Part shown: positions 228 through 5,909 of the stretch, piece by piece
Numbering within the stretch: the first letter of the stretch is position 1
How the letters are laid out: each line of letters starts with the position of its first letter
Origin: Thermogymnomonas acidicola JCM 13583
Lineage (GTDB): Archaea; Thermoplasmatota; Thermoplasmata; Thermoplasmatales; Thermoplasmataceae
NCBI RefSeq assembly: GCF_001316105.1
Contig: NZ_BBCP01000007.1
Coordinates: forward strand, 1 to 64,000
Reading direction: 5' to 3'
Length of the DNA stretch: 64,000 nucleotides
Program-made: the position numbers and the translations under genes
The notes under the pieces: model-generated
What the model was told of the DNA's origin: nothing
Databases searched by the model: none
The model's input: the letters and a program-made list of their open reading frames with translations, nothing else

Positions 228-531
228 TTTCATATTTGTTTAATTCCGCACTAAGCGAAGCGGCATTGTGCGGTCAAGCATCCCCTTAAGCCATTCAAGC
301 CCCCTCCCTGAATTGCACTCCGCAGGAGAGAATAATGTGCCCGAAGCGAGCCGGAAGCCTGCGGAGCAGGACCGAGTGGTGTAAGCGTTAGCGGTGGGTG
401 GTGTGGAACACCAAGCGAAGCGAAGGTGTGTAGCACCACACATACACCACGAGTGGCGAGCACAGGACACCACCCCGGATGAGCGTAGCGAAGAAGGGGG
501 GGCTCTTTCGGAGAAAGAGTGCGAGCCGTAA

Positions 532-584
532 ATCAAAAGAGGGGGGGTGGATTGCGAAGCAAGACGGGGGGGGTGAATTTTGAT
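532..584. repeat. Stem-loop module copy 1
   Basis: Stem ATCAAAA (532-538) pairs with TTTTGAT (578-584). The loop carries a G tract followed by TGG, then TTGC-GAA-GCAA (553-561), which can fold on itself, then a second G tract followed by TGAA. The loop matches copy 2 (656-712) almost base for base while the outer stem differs. Confidence 0.6.
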
Positions 585-655
585 TGGAGGCGAAGCATGG
601 GGGGGGTCCTGTGCTCGGCGTGCAGGCGAGCGGAGGGCACATAGTAAATAGCGGA

Positions 656-712
656 GGCTCAAAGAGGGGGGGTGGCTGAGCGAAGCGAAGTCGGGGGGGG
701 TGAATTTGAGCC
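656..712. repeat. Stem-loop module copy 2
   Basis: Stem GGCTCAAA (656-663) pairs with TTTGAGCC (705-712). The loop repeats the order of copy 1: GAG plus G tract plus TGG, a GCGAAGC core (680-686), CG plus G tract plus TGAA. The stem bases differ from copy 1 but remain complementary, so pairing rather than sequence appears conserved between the copies. Confidence 0.6.
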
Positions 713-735
713 GGAGCTGTTCAAGTTCATTTGAA

Positions 736-3315
736 TTATTTGCTATTATGATCTTCGGGGGGGTTGAAAAATTGGATCAACTTTTCAAAACTTTCAAAGT
801 GATATTTGTAAAATTCATCCTCGTTAACTCTGACGTAGATCCATTTGTCTCCCGTAACTCTTTCGGCGTCCTCGCACCACAACTTGGCTCTCTTATCCTT
901 GAACTTTACATCTACATCCTCTTCTCCTTTTGTTTCAGCAATCACGTACTTATCTTCAAGTTTTATGATAAAATCTGGATAATAGTACCTCAGGTTTCCG
1001 CTTGAATCCCTATATTCTATAAAGAATCCTATTTTCTGAGCAAGCTTTGAAAATGCCTTCACATCATCAACCGAGTCCAGAAATCTTGCAAAGTTAACCT
1101 CAAGATCATTATCACAGGGAACGTAATTGAAGATGCATTTATTGGCTTGATAAACCTTCTTTGTCCAGACAAAGGGCTGTGTATCGGATATCTTAATTCT
1201 GTCAAGTATGGTTACTTGACTGTCTGTGAATGCCAGGTCTTTTAAGTTATCCACAAAGACCTTTATCAGTTTCTCCTGTAATTCCGGCTCGCTTATCTGG
1301 AAAAGAACTCTAGGATCCTCTAAGTCAACTTTCTGATCAAAGAGTTTTTTCTCTATGTATTCCTTTACAATTGGATATAGGTCTGCGAACATGTTGGCTA
1401 GGTTAAGCTCCTTGAGGATTCTACCAGTATAATATGCAATAACACTTTTTACATCCTGCGGTACAGGCAGATCCCAATTTCTTTCAACCTGAACTGCACC
1501 GGTGACCATATCAACTGCCTTGTAGGTAGTCTTGAATACCTTGTTTTCCAACCCTATGTTGAGCGGTGGTATTTTGTCCAGTGTATTCTCATCGATTTCA
1601 AATTCTCTAACGATAATTGCTGGCGTAAGTATGGGAATTTCTAAATCGAATTCCTTCTTATCCATATCAACGAATATTGTTGTTACATTGATCTGGTTAC
1701 CAAGATTTGCCGTGCCAAACGTTATGTTTTCATTCCTCTCCAATTCTTCTATAATCTGCATTAAGCCGGGTGGTCCAATTACCTCCAGTATATTCACAAA
1801 ATCTTTTACACTGGCGTTCTCATCTGGAAACATCTTTCTTAGACCTCTTCCAATGACCTGTTCAGGAAGCACATTCCTCTCGGATGTATACGATCTCAAT
1901 CCCACTATTACATTCACGTTTCTTACGTCCCATCCCTCGTTCAGCATCATTGTGCTCACTATGGCCTCGTAGGTATTCTCCTCGCTGTCAACCGTTTGAG
2001 CGAATTTTCTCGCTTCTTCAATATCTGATTTTGCTACCTCTCCTGTACTGTCCGTGTGTATTAACAAAATTTTACCTGAGAGCTGTGGTAGTGTCTCCAG
2101 ATATTTTTTTAACTGATCAGCCTGCTTGTTATCCGGACACTGGAAAAAGAGTATGGGCTTCTTGTTTAGCTTTGCCAGAGCGTCCTTATACTCCTGCCAT
2201 CTCTTAATGCCTGCTTCGATCCAAGCCCTGTAACGTTCAACAACGTTCGTAGATGTTATTTCAGTGGCACTTTGCACTATACCCTTCAATGGCCTTTTCA
2301 CTATATTCATCTCAATTGCTTCCTTTAGCGTAAAATCTACAATCAGCCATGGAAATAGTGCTCCATTCTCGCCACGGGGTGTGGCTGAAAAATCCAGTTC
2401 AGAATTGAAACCTTTGCCGTATTTTGACTCCAAGGATTTGTGAAGGTCTATAAGAATCTGCTTCCATCTTTTTTCATAATTGTATATGTGGTGTGCCTCA
2501 TCCTTTAATATCATTATGTTCGGTATTTTTTCCAAGACCTCTTTTATTCTATTCTCCTGTGCAATATTTGTTCTGTTTACCTCCTTTAAATCCAGAACGT
2601 CATCAACAAATTTATCAGCTTCCTTTTTCCTGTTTGCCTTATCCTGGAGTTGCTGTACATTTGTTAAAAATAGAATAGAGTCAGGGATGTTATTTATTGG
2701 GTCCTCCTTCAAAATGACTTTCAGATCGAATTTATCTGACCATTCTGGTGGAATTAATGGTATCTCATGGAATATTTTCCCATCCTGATAGCCCCCCCTT
2801 TTTAAACGATCGTAAATTACATTCTTTTCTCCAGCTATTAAAAGAAACTTGGAGGTGTAATCGTCGCCATTTTCGAACTTATGGTTAAAGTACTGCCATA
2901 CAATAGATAATGCCATAACATAGGTCTTTCCTGATCCAGTGGCCATTTTAAACCCGTAGAGAGGATAAATATCAACATTAGGATCGAAAAATTGTGGCCC
3001 TTCACCGAACTCTTTAGCGAGATCTAAAAATCTCCTCTTCTTCATGACCTCATAAACATAGATTAGAGTCTCTATGGATTCCCTCTGGGCATACCAGAAC
3101 TCAAATTTCTCATTGTTTATTATATGATCCTCATTGAGAATGATGCCTCCTATGGCGGCGTAAGCTATGCCCAAGAAGCCAAGCACTTCGTATAGTATAT
3201 TGCCTGATTCTAGCATTGAGATAAAATGCAGGAAAAGGCCGTTCCAGATTAAGCTTGAGATAAAGAAGGCTGGCGCCGATATTAAAAATACTATTTTTAG
3301 CGTGTCTTCTTCCAT
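736..3315 (-). CDS. Type III restriction-like DEAD/DEAH helicase with C-terminal PD-(D/E)XK nuclease
   Basis: 859 residues. Walker A MATGSGKT lies near residue 127, preceded by an FWYAQRESIETL segment typical of Res-type helicases. Motif II is KDEAHHIYNY, motif III FSATPRG, motif VI QVIGRGLRKM. Near the C terminus PDFIIKL followed by ETKGEE fits a PD-(D/E)XK nuclease. The order matches Res subunits of type III restriction systems, which translocate on and cleave foreign DNA together with a Mod methylase. No Mod gene is seen beside it. Residues 1-60 are strongly hydrophobic (two possible membrane segments), unlike usual Res N termini, so either membrane tethering or an unnoticed frameshift is possible. 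It is the last gene of the integrase-led operon and starts 4 bases after its upstream neighbour, behind GAGGTAAAGC. Confidence 0.85.
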   Translation of the reverse strand: MEEDTLKIVFLISAPAFFISSLIWNGLFLHFISMLESGNILYEVLGFLGIAYAAIGGIILNEDHIINNEKFEFWYAQRESIETLIYVYEVMKKRRFLDLAKEFGEGPQFFDPNVDIYPLYGFKMATGSGKTYVMALSIVWQYFNHKFENGDDYTSKFLLIAGEKNVIYDRLKRGGYQDGKIFHEIPLIPPEWSDKFDLKVILKEDPINNIPDSILFLTNVQQLQDKANRKKEADKFVDDVLDLKEVNRTNIAQENRIKEVLEKIPNIMILKDEAHHIYNYEKRWKQILIDLHKSLESKYGKGFNSELDFSATPRGENGALFPWLIVDFTLKEAIEMNIVKRPLKGIVQSATEITSTNVVERYRAWIEAGIKRWQEYKDALAKLNKKPILFFQCPDNKQADQLKKYLETLPQLSGKILLIHTDSTGEVAKSDIEEARKFAQTVDSEENTYEAIVSTMMLNEGWDVRNVNVIVGLRSYTSERNVLPEQVIGRGLRKMFPDENASVKDFVNILEVIGPPGLMQIIEELERNENITFGTANLGNQINVTTIFVDMDKKEFDLEIPILTPAIIVREFEIDENTLDKIPPLNIGLENKVFKTTYKAVDMVTGAVQVERNWDLPVPQDVKSVIAYYTGRILKELNLANMFADLYPIVKEYIEKKLFDQKVDLEDPRVLFQISEPELQEKLIKVFVDNLKDLAFTDSQVTILDRIKISDTQPFVWTKKVYQANKCIFNYVPCDNDLEVNFARFLDSVDDVKAFSKLAQKIGFFIEYRDSSGNLRYYYPDFIIKLEDKYVIAETKGEEDVDVKFKDKRAKLWCEDAERVTGDKWIYVRVNEDEFYKYHFESFEKLIQFFNPPEDHNSK

Positions 3316-3318
3316 GCT

Positions 3319-3669
3319 TTACCTCTGAGCCCTGAACCTTCTGTTTGGCGTTATCGTTGCAGATATGGTTGCCTCCTCGCGCCTGAATATGAGGCCGCGC
3401 CTTGTTATGGTCAGATCTATCCTGAAAACAGGATTCGATTCATATTCAACGTAGCTGATGTCCGGATTCCTCTCCATGAACCTCATCACAGAGTCGATCT
3501 GCCTGCGATCCTCAAGTTCGTACTGGTTAACCGTTTTCTCGATAACCGTTTCCTGAAGTCTTTCGAGCGTGCCCTTCTTCTGCGGGTCTGCCATGACATA
3601 CCTTATTACCTGCGGCTCTTCTTCTCTCCCTTTCAAAACAATCCTTTCAGTTCTTTCCATCTTCTTCAT
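3319..3669 (-). CDS. Small charged protein of unknown function
   Basis: About 116 residues, starting at the ATG of MKKMERTERIVLKG; ATG 3687 would add six residues. It is rich in Arg, Glu and Lys, predicted helical in the middle (LERLQETVIEKTVNQYELEDRR) and beta-like toward the end, ending in the basic tail RRFRAQR. No family is recognised. It overlaps the end of the preceding small gene by about 23 bases and is followed 4 bases later by the helicase-nuclease, so it is translated within the same operon. Being directly upstream of a Res-like gene, it may be a partner or regulator of that enzyme, but nothing in its sequence shows this. Confidence 0.55.
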   Translation of the reverse strand: MKKMERTERIVLKGREEEPQVIRYVMADPQKKGTLERLQETVIEKTVNQYELEDRRQIDSVMRFMERNPDISYVEYESNPVFRIDLTITRRGLIFRREEATISATITPNRRFRAQR

Positions 3670-3829
3670 CTCCGTTGAAAAAGGCAAGCCACGTCTGTGT
3701 CTTAGCTATAAATTCGTCTTTTGTAAGCACATTTGGTTCGGAAAGCAGTATTTTAGTTAACGGGTGCTCTGGGAATTTAGCGGCGAATTTTATTTTTACA
3801 TTCGCTATGTCAAAACCTGCCTTTTCCAC
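3647..3829 (-). CDS. Small protein of unknown function
   Basis: Sixty residues from GTG 3829 (VEKAGFDIANVKIKFAAKF), ending DEEDGKN. The frame stays open upstream to the stop of the 3863-4492 gene without an ATG, reading LPIAQYYI before the GTG, so the true start is uncertain. No family is recognised. It sits between a winged-helix protein and another small protein in the same minus-strand operon and overlaps its downstream neighbour. Codon use is like the rest of the AT-rich island. Confidence 0.45.
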   Translation of the reverse strand: MEKAGFDIANVKIKFAAKFPEHPLTKILLSEPNVLTKDEFIAKTQTWLAFFNGDEEDGKN

Positions 3830-3862
3830 GATATAATATTGCGCAATGGGTAATACGTCGAT

Positions 3863-4492
3863 TTAGCGGGGATTACGACGGTTATTGGAAGCATCCATAA
3901 GCCTTAGGAAATCCTCCATGGTAGAGGGATCGACAATGTCTATTTCTTCCCTGTATGAATAACTGCACTCGCAATTGAACGATATGATCAGATGGGTAAA
4001 TATCACATCTATGTGCATGTCATCGCTGATAGGGTATCTGGCGGTCTTTTTCTTAGCGGAATCGATTGATATATCCGATTCCCTCTGGCACTTCTGGCAT
4101 AAAACCTTTCTTCCTGATTCCGCGAATCTGATGACGAAATAGAAATAACCATTCTCAATAAGATTCCAGAAAAGCATAGGATCTCTACCAATCATGTAGG
4201 TATAGATTTCCTCCGGCATTGTCCTGAGCTCTGTCCTTCTTTTGTCCTTATCGTCGCTGAGCCTTTCAACGAATTTCATTTTTGAGAGCATATCTATTCT
4301 CCTGTCAATCCACTCGTGCTTGAGCTGGTTCGAGGAGCGAATCCTGTCCCTGGGAATGCCTGATAATGCTATGTATAGATCGCTTGTGAACGTGTGCTGG
4401 AATTTGCGTTCTCTGTCCTGGATGGCTCTGAGAACAGCTTCCGCTCTCCTGTCCGGAGGATACTTATAATCCACTGGGGTGTCAAAAATCAT
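3863..4492 (-). CDS. Winged-helix-like protein with zinc-binding cysteines
   Basis: 209 residues. Residues about 20-110 are helix-rich and basic (ALSGIPRDRIRSSNQLKHEWIDRRIDMLSKMKFVERL) and resemble a winged-helix DNA-binding domain with a following wing (DDKDKRRTELRTM). Around residue 130 a CQKC pair and later a CEC pair could bind one zinc. The arrangement suggests a transcription regulator of the island, but I do not recognise a named family. It starts 4 bases after the integrase stop, so it is probably translated from the same message, and is followed by two small proteins and the helicase-nuclease. Confidence 0.5.
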   Translation of the reverse strand: MIFDTPVDYKYPPDRRAEAVLRAIQDRERKFQHTFTSDLYIALSGIPRDRIRSSNQLKHEWIDRRIDMLSKMKFVERLSDDKDKRRTELRTMPEEIYTYMIGRDPMLFWNLIENGYFYFVIRFAESGRKVLCQKCQRESDISIDSAKKKTARYPISDDMHIDVIFTHLIISFNCECSYSYREEIDIVDPSTMEDFLRLMDASNNRRNPR

Positions 4493-4496
4493 AGAT

Positions 4497-5788
4497 TTAA
4501 AAAGGCATTTTCATTATAGCCCTTCCGTTGGGCAATACCGCCTGAAATTCGTACCCTTCGCTCAGGAATTTTTCTATTTCATCTACAGGCACGAGCCTCT
4601 GCTTTGATCCGTTGCCTGACATAGCGCCTGCGACCTTATCCCTGAGCAGTTTCTGGAATGCCTCGTTGTCCATCTCTGCAAGGTTCATTCGATCGATCTC
4701 ATCCTGCCTGTAGCCCACTGCAAGTAAAAGCTGTTGCTGAAGGTACAGCTTTGCATCGCTCTCCGATGGCTCTGTTACCCTTGTTTCCAGGTACTTTAAG
4801 CATTTTTTGTATGATTCGCGCATCTCCTCTATCATGTCCGGAGGCAGTCTCTTGTTCGTTGAATACCTTGCTTCGATATCGCCCTTGTGCCCCATTATGA
4901 ACTGCCTCCATGGATGTGATATTAATCCCTTTGATTCTGCTATGTCTAATGCTGTGCTGAAATATGCCCTTAAAACATAGGGTCTCATCTTCAAGCCTGC
5001 GCCGTTGATGGCATCGCGGACGTCCCTTGTGACTAGGGTTGTCCTGAGAAATGCGTTTTTCTTTATTCCACGGACATCAAACTGCAATAATGGAGAATCG
5101 TAGGATAATTCCTCGCCTTGTTTTCTCCTCTCCTCAAGGTATTCCTTGATATATGTTGCCCCTTCTTCTCCTATGAAAGAAAAATACTGGTGCCTTGCCT
5201 TGCTTAACCTGCTCCTAACCATTACCGTAACAGGAATCTTGTCAAATTCTATCTCGTCTGATAACTTCAGCTCCTTGATATCTCCAAGTTTCAATCCGTC
5301 TGTTCCTTCGTAATTGCCAAGTGATTCAGGTCGTAAACCCGAAAATGCCATTAACGCTATGATAACCCTTCCTCGCGATGTTGCTTTTCTCAATATCCTT
5401 GCCAGTTCTTCCTTGCTTGGTACTCTCTCGTTTGCTATTGTAGGCGTTTCGTTCTCTCCGGATATGTTAACGGCTAACTGTAAACGGATACCGTTAAACT
5501 TCAGCCAAGAGAGAATAACCTTCTTGAACCTTGCAATGTATGATCCTGCCTTTCCTTTGCTTTCCATGTCCCTTACAAAATCTGCGAATTCATAGCGGAA
5601 ATCCTTTTCGTTGTTTTTTTTGCCTTTTCAAGTATCTGCTTTGGTGTTGTTTTTGTTAATTCGCAATAGTGACCTAAGTTTCGCAATGCCACTGTTGCCG
5701 TTAGAACGGATTTTGCCCTTAAATTCTCAAACCATCTTCGCACATCTTCATCCAGAAGAAGATCCTGATACTTGGGCTGAATGGTCAT
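4497..5788 (-). CDS. Tyrosine recombinase (integrase), split by a frameshift at A8
   Basis: Site-specific recombinase that would integrate and excise the island. Residues 1-60 (frame from 5788) form the SAM-like core-binding domain (VRRWFENLRAKSVLTATV). The catalytic domain follows in another frame: first Arg in FSGLRPESL, second Arg in YVLRAYFST, His in IMGHKG, and tyrosine nucleophile in ARYSTNKRLPPD. The break lies at a run of eight A (minus strand, 5614-5621); nine would restore KAKKNNEKDFRYEFADFVRD. This is either a consensus error, a mutation, or slippage at an A8 run. The gene abuts the 3' end of tRNA-Ala, the usual target of such enzymes, and heads the operon ending in the Res-like nuclease. 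Confidence 0.85.
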
Positions 5789-5837
5789 GATAGCATAACG
5801 AGTAACAGGATAAAAAGTATTCGATTAATAGATTAAA

Positions 5838-5909
5838 TGGACCGGTCGGGATTTGAACCCGAGGCCTCCTGCTTGCGAAGCAGGCGATCTACCGCTGATC
5901 TACCGGCCC
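5838..5909 (-). tRNA. tRNA-Ala (CGC)
   Basis: A 72-base cloverleaf on the minus strand. Acceptor GGGCCGG pairs with CCGGTCC including the G3-U70 wobble that identifies alanine tRNAs, discriminator A at 5838. Anticodon arm CCTGC-TTCGCAA-GCAGG gives CGC (codon GCG). T arm TCGGG-TTCAAAT-CCCGA. No CCA is encoded. Its 3' end faces the integrase gene and marks the switch from AT-rich island to GC-rich chromosome, so it is the likely attachment site. A second copy of its 3' end was not found within 1-5837. Confidence 0.95.

Follow-up and report, generated by a model that had tools for sequence, protein, structure and literature searches.

Large structured RNAs such as GOLLD, ROOL and similar molecules are found in mobile elements and phages. 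They are noncoding, consist of many helices and have no clear function. Another group is formed by folded single-stranded DNA recombination sites, including the integron attC site, a single short imperfect palindrome recombined by IntI. Among small motifs, the d(GCGNAGC) hairpin is of a very stable type.

The element described here resembles GOLLD and ROOL in being long, multi-helix, noncoding and located on mobile DNA. Unlike them, it is archaeal, has no Rfam match and comes without evidence of transcription. With attC and other folded single-stranded sites it shares the folding of one strand, repeated sites that border exchangeable cargo and a tyrosine recombinase on the same element. On the contrary, its roughly 440 nt hold many helices, the integrase has its att site at tRNA-Ala, kilobases away, and the cargo occupies two slots around one element rather than a cassette array. 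An integron attC site was rejected given this length, the 13 or more helices and the att core at tRNA-Ala.

In terms of known classes, a covariance-model search of Rfam 15 returned no family above the gathering threshold (best chance match E 9.8), and the first-pass annotation of this DNA had likewise recognised no class. No paper describing the element was found in literature searches, and viral contigs and phage records gave no match. Near-matches of its module in bacteria (Piscirickettsia, Bradyrhizobium plasmids) have no covarying outer stem and were taken as chance. No Rep (HUH), which a rolling-circle plasmid origin would call for, is present among the scanned neighbour genes, and no relaxase or Rep protein that would use the element was found. 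Since neither the architecture nor a partner is known, we judge the class to be new, absent from Rfam and undescribed in the literature found. If the element were a conversion origin or a transfer site, it would fall under a known kind.

Results

A noncoding locus rich in small hairpins

The window is the whole stretch of 64,000 nt (1-64000) from the source genome (G000). The element, of about 440-450 nt, lies close to its left end, between the 3' ends of two ORFs. The features of this end are as follows.

3-227, + strand: ORF, open at the contig start, its 3' end facing the element
241-717, + strand: structured element, family A copy, core only, without the 5' extension P0/H0 of its relatives; homologs in 30 of 117 genomes, fold z-scores -4.8/-5.2
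736-3315, - strand: cargo, type III restriction enzyme Res subunit (ResIII, RE_endonuc; Pfam PF04851, PADLOC REase_III)
3319-3687, - strand: small backbone ORF beside the integrase, with 72-76% identical homologs in L031, L034 and L035
3863-4492, - strand: small backbone ORF beside the integrase, with a 54% homolog in L035
4497-5788, - strand: tyrosine integrase, in two pieces (71 + 356 aa) owing to a frameshift close to a T8 run; PF00589 at its cut-off, 441 aa intact in relatives
5837-5909, - strand: attachment site, where tRNA-Ala(CGC) (5838-5909) ends with the att core ATGGACCGGTCGGGATTTG

The gap was expected to be convergent and noncoding, and the first ORF and the restriction gene indeed meet tail-to-tail around the element. 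A protein-coding reading was rejected. No conserved protein frame, which would have refuted a structured element, runs through the region, as frames are not kept among homologs. Furthermore, 165 of 235 indel runs among 28 copies are not multiples of three, as expected of noncoding DNA.

Five exact GCGAAGC heptamers had been claimed and are found at 255, 415, 554, 590 and 680, against a mean of 0.1 (maximum 2) in 300 dinucleotide shuffles. Comparison of homologs corrects the motif to GCGNAGC, with N free. Hairpins with GNA triloops number five on the + strand (0.14 in shuffles, maximum 2), whereas the remainder of the window has about 0.1 over the same length. Perfect hairpins with loops of 3 or 4 bases also number five on this strand, and every one has a GNA triloop; the - strand of the element has no perfect GNA-triloop hairpin. 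These triloops are of the d(GCGNAGC) type.

The fold z-score of the element is -4.8 as RNA and -5.2 as DNA, and none of 100 shuffles folds as well. The - strand as RNA is also low, at -7.0, so energy alone cannot name the folded strand.

Helices, covariation and strand

The element has at least 13 helices. All stems of the first-pass annotation are present at their coordinates, including a perfect 12-bp helix (457-468/606-617), and so are the two modules at 532-584 and 656-712. The main parts, all on the + strand, are listed below.

246-273: 5' hairpin CCGCAC/GTGCGG, 97% of cells paired
281-310: C-tract region with the potential to pair with GAGGGG in the modules (inference from family comparison); CCCCTC in families A-E, and RNAalifold pairs the region with module 2
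318-328: hairpin CTCC-GCA-GGAG with a GNA triloop, double changes in three of four pairs
335-642: long-range helix ATGTGCCC (335-342)/GGGCACAT (635-642), with covariation, including the double compensatory form ATATGCTC/GAGCATAT in L110
358-370: hairpin CCTGC-GGA-GCAGG, a U-A to C-G double change in the window; GTCTTGC/GCAAGAC in others
376-450: helix GTGGTGTA/TACACCAC around GGTGT-GNA-ACACC hairpins, 98% of cells paired
457-617: 12-bp long-range helix CGAGCACAGGAC/GTCCTGTGCTCG, matched in families B, C, D and E by analogous helices of 16-18 bp whose sequences differ
503-519: hairpin CTCTTTC-GGA-GAAAGAG, with length and pair changes among copies
532-584: G-module 1, stem ATCAAAA/TTTTGAT, GAG(n), inner hairpin TTGC-GAA-GCAA, G(n)TGAA; match of covariance model R1 at 528-587 (E 5.4e-8), with covariation
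656-712: G-module 2, stem GGCTCAAA/TTTGAGCC and the inner motif of module 1; match of model R1 at 653-714 (E 4.8e-8)

Pairing between CCCCTC and GAGGGG is possible in every family, an inference that was not tested separately. The long-range helix is retained in the deletion derivative L110/L144, where two double changes turn ATGTGCCC/GGGCACAT into ATATGCTC/GAGCATAT.

Covariation, which had been proposed as a test, is far above background. For the module model R1 there are 28 double-change cells against 7.1 in shuffles (0 of 500 reached it), with a covariation score of 0.48 against 0.14, and the signal collapses once partners are slid. For the whole element (alignment A2, structure fixed), 95% of cells pair and 15 pairs show double changes, compared with 3.6 in shuffles and 3-9 with slid partners. 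The outer stems of the two modules, although different, both pair as first described, and R1 matches both modules. Conservation of pairing over sequence is also confirmed, the outer stem being replaced between families by another complementary sequence.

As for the strand, the consensus fold of the 28 copies reaches -98 kcal/mol on the + strand and -75 on the - strand. G-U cells (134) far outnumber A-C cells (17) on the + strand, which marks it as the folded one; about half of the G-U cells stem from three constant G-U positions. Comparison of the aligned sequences thus demonstrates a conserved fold of one strand, while it does not tell whether RNA or DNA is the molecule that folds.

Homologs and families

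The homologs predicted for the element exist, by BLAST and by covariance model. With the window copy as query, BLAST finds them in 18 of 61 relatives, the identity being 77-85%. A homolog as query extends this to 30 of 117 Thermoplasmatales genomes, with one to four copies each and about 40 in total. Model R1 matches in 31 of the 117, including family B, and in no genome outside Thermoplasmatales in a sample of 390 from the phylum. Named records with copies are Thermoplasmatales (I-plasma, E-plasma, ASS_A1 and many acid-drainage MAGs), plus one MAG labelled Micrarchaeota. The latter contig (L048, JAJZLT010000026.1) carries a shortened element with a right flank 92% identical to that of the window; it is either a transfer between phyla or a case of misbinning.

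The motif kept between families is GAGGGG, a hairpin or 2-3 nt, and GGGGTGAA, flanked by interchangeable complementary stems. We define the pPO1-like structured element class by this module motif together with compensatory outer-stem change between families. The window meets the motif twice, at 528-587 and 653-714 (E about 5e-8). In G072, the stem GCAAGAAAA/TTTTCTTGC encloses the same motif. By eye, families A-E have in common a T-rich palindrome, TCGCA, stem P0, the CCCCTC C-tract, hairpins, one or more modules and a long-range helix. The element extends further 5' in relatives, with stem P0 and the T-rich palindrome H0, both missing in the window; L031 and L035 also lack this 5' part.

One further family, represented by L228, which lacks the module, was found by fold energy in integrase loci that gave no match. 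Other structured windows in such loci (L222, L223) look coding by eye and were set aside. In L200 and L201 (G078:C27, G029:C132), a family B/C element lies just upstream of an ORF with an IS630-type-transposase-like start, again by eye.

At the left edge of family A (L024, L037, L228), the T-rich palindrome TACCTTTT-AAAAGGTA beside GGCGAAAA resembles a leftward archaeal promoter (BRE/TATA) with an operator. On the right, a half-palindrome related to it, TACCAAAAGGTAT, stands before the antitoxin-like ORF. Judging from these resemblances, both edges of the element may hold outward-facing promoters.

Plasmid order and cargo

The copies are not dispersed at random but sit in integrative plasmids, where the order is attL, left cargo, element, restriction-modification cargo, Orc1/Cdc6, serine resolvase, HerA-like ATPase, tyrosine integrase and tRNA-Ala. 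Between element and integrase, order and orientation are constant, with restriction-modification or other cargo coming first. In at least 20 islands, relatives of the window integrase are encoded to the right of the element and on the strand opposite to it, and 22 of 40 family A loci have the Orc1/Cdc6 gene. Of the large ORFs on the right, the nearest one points toward the element in 33 of 34 loci. The att core ATGGACCGGTCGGGATTTG sits at tRNA-Ala on the right; in about 16 loci its copy, which continues into ATTAATGTTTTAAG(G/C)GAATAC, lies to the left of the element at a distance of 0.5-6.4 kb. At some integrase loci, no element could be detected.

That the element belongs to a mobile island is confirmed by the frameshifted tyrosine integrase beside a tRNA-Ala attachment site in the window. 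Orc1/Cdc6 is absent between element and integrase here. With Cdc6, resolvase and HerA lost and the integrase frameshifted, the window holds a decayed plasmid of the integrative Orc1/Cdc6 family, with the restriction gene as cargo, and not a complete member. The integrase frame is broken at 5573-5615, near the T8 run, which could be either real decay or an assembly error.

Several copies share one flank, up to 100% to the edge of the element, and have an unrelated flank on the other side (L028/L029, L023/L033, window/L048). Identity between such copies changes inside the element or at its edge, so that the cargo on its two sides varies independently. In the window and L048, nothing is shared on the left.

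Family B sits in a larger integrated element, no shorter than 11.5 kb, whose copies in G108, G011 and G094 are 99.9% identical, as they are over 8.1 kb in G010. Such identity across three genera, and in part a fourth, points to very recent transfer. The loci concerned (L205, L206, L207 and L210, in G108, G011, G010 and G094) have integrase, HerA-like ATPase, acetyltransferase-like and transporter-like genes, and the integrated element is interrupted in G010.

A tail-to-tail toxin-antitoxin pair lies directly 3' of the element in L134, L137, L139, L029 and others. It consists of a 57-aa RelB-like ORF (+) and a RelE/ParE-like toxin (-), often decayed, whose stop codons meet. The antitoxin-like half, ORF57, was considered as a partner of the element, which it adjoins in 23 of 40 loci. 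It also occurs without an intact element, and is therefore cargo rather than an essential partner.

The related element of pPO1

A search of a plasmid collection gave a single, weak match, on pPO1, an autonomous circular plasmid of Picrophilus oshimae. This element is intergenic, on the minus strand of NC_016049.1 (complement of about 3715-4090). One module has the inner GAGGGGTGGATTGCGAAGCAAGACGGGGTGAA within stem GTAAAAAAA/TTTTTTTAC and a second has GAGGGGGTAGGGGGTGAA within ATGCACGAA/TTCGTGCAT. A P0 hairpin, C-tracts and a 16-bp long-range helix (CGTGAGCAGACGACAC/GTGTCGTCTGCTCACG) are also present. These parts are shared with family A, including an identical inner module (GAGGGGTGGATTGCGAAGCAAGACGGGGTGAA). 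It differs from family A in that every stem is of other sequence, the plasmid is autonomous and there is no tyrosine integrase. The gene order in pPO1 (element, Cdc6, resolvase, HerA) is that of the integrative plasmids minus the integrase, and its Cdc6 is 45% identical over 341 residues to that of L034.

The paper on pPO1 remarks only on unusual G+C and a possible secondary DNA structure in the region of the element (PMC3177234). The GC-deviant intergenic regions received no Tn5 insertion, and qPCR efficiency was 1.58 compared with 1.95 (PMC3177234); by sequence, the 1.58 primers lie inside the element. Single-stranded plasmid DNA was not detected and no Rep homolog is reported (PMC3177234). 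An AT-rich repeat region, IG1, is located upstream of cdc6 (PMC3177234).

Inflated G and C runs in the source assembly

The G-tracts of the modules are real, as first described, while their lengths of G7/G8 in the window are artefactual, being G4 in nearly all homologs. Runs of G are bimodal in the source assembly (789 of length 3, 67 of 4, 23 of 5, 14 of 6, 110 of 7 and 24 of 8), as are runs of C; runs of A and T are not. GGGGGGG occurs more than 8,000 times in the genome if overlapping occurrences on both strands are included. Given this pattern and the G4 tracts of homologs, we attribute the long tracts to assembly-wide inflation of G/C runs and reject a biological cause. The low completeness (50.5%) may share this cause. 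The inflated runs will break genes and mislead users of this genome.

Discussion

Our preferred reading, held with even confidence, is that of a conserved cis-acting backbone element of integrative Orc1/Cdc6-type Thermoplasmatales plasmids, working as a folded + strand, with DNA slightly favoured. The role in cis is inferred from the fixed anatomy, with attL on the left, the element, opposite-strand cargo, Cdc6, resolvase, HerA, integrase and attR at tRNA-Ala, and from the same order in pPO1. Against it, some integrase loci lack a detectable element, and no relaxase or Rep protein was found that could act on it. In the proposed mechanism, the + strand would turn single-stranded during plasmid replication, excision or transfer, a step that we infer. 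It would then fold into nested helices, GNA mini-hairpins and the two G-tract modules. The folded modules might be recognised by a plasmid or host protein, or by the C-tract region of the same strand.

The preference for DNA is also an inference. It rests on the triloops, which are nearly always GNA closed by C and G and are confined to the + strand; on the backbone position; on copies without the 5' part; on the lack of a recognised common promoter; and on the pPO1 data, namely the stable DNA structure suspected by its authors, the missing Tn5 insertions and the qPCR value of 1.58 (PMC3177234). The GNRA-type tetraloops in the module-1 hairpin speak against DNA, the tolerance of G-U fits RNA equally, and the pPO1 authors detected no single-stranded plasmid DNA (PMC3177234). 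The element could instead be the gene of a large structured noncoding RNA, transcribed from the + strand and acting on copy number, on neighbouring toxin-antitoxin or restriction genes, or on rival elements. We see this as a real possibility that falls short of an even chance. G-U pairs kept on one strand, covariation, the GNRA tetraloops, a tandem G-A motif (GCGAGCC/GGCGAGC) and an optional peripheral domain, as in large RNAs, would suit it. It has to contend with the missing Rfam match, with the 5' part absent from L031, L035 and the window, and with loops that are mostly GNA triloops, not the tetraloops usual in RNA. No promoter common to all copies was seen by eye at the 5' end, and no common terminator was recognised.

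The exchange of flanks raises another reading, in which the element is merely portable homology, a hinge at which flanking defence modules are swapped by homologous recombination between copies, the fold being secondary. The copy pairs sharing only one flank, and same-orientation copies within one genome, agree with it. The same one-sided sharing is expected if the element is a conserved backbone between two cargo slots, and a hinge leaves unexplained both the compensatory changes and the shared architecture of pPO1 and families B-E with unrelated sequence, which makes it unlikely. A replication origin would also be a conserved, hairpin-rich noncoding region of a plasmid. We consider it very unlikely here, as the expected place of an Orc1/Cdc6 origin is upstream of cdc6, and in pPO1 the AT-rich IG1 occupies that place (PMC3177234). 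The element is GC-rich and on the far side of cdc6, 1-6.5 kb off with cargo between. A lagging-strand or conversion origin is not excluded.

In the most far-reaching reading, the element would belong to a new class of large devices made of one folded strand, either DNA or RNA, with paired G-tract modules, on integrative and autonomous plasmids of an archaeal order. It would control how these plasmids are maintained or moved, and thereby how defence systems spread, a proposal to which we give even odds of being right or wrong. The element provides a noncoding hallmark for a family of plasmids by which restriction-modification and other cargo passes between acidophilic archaea.
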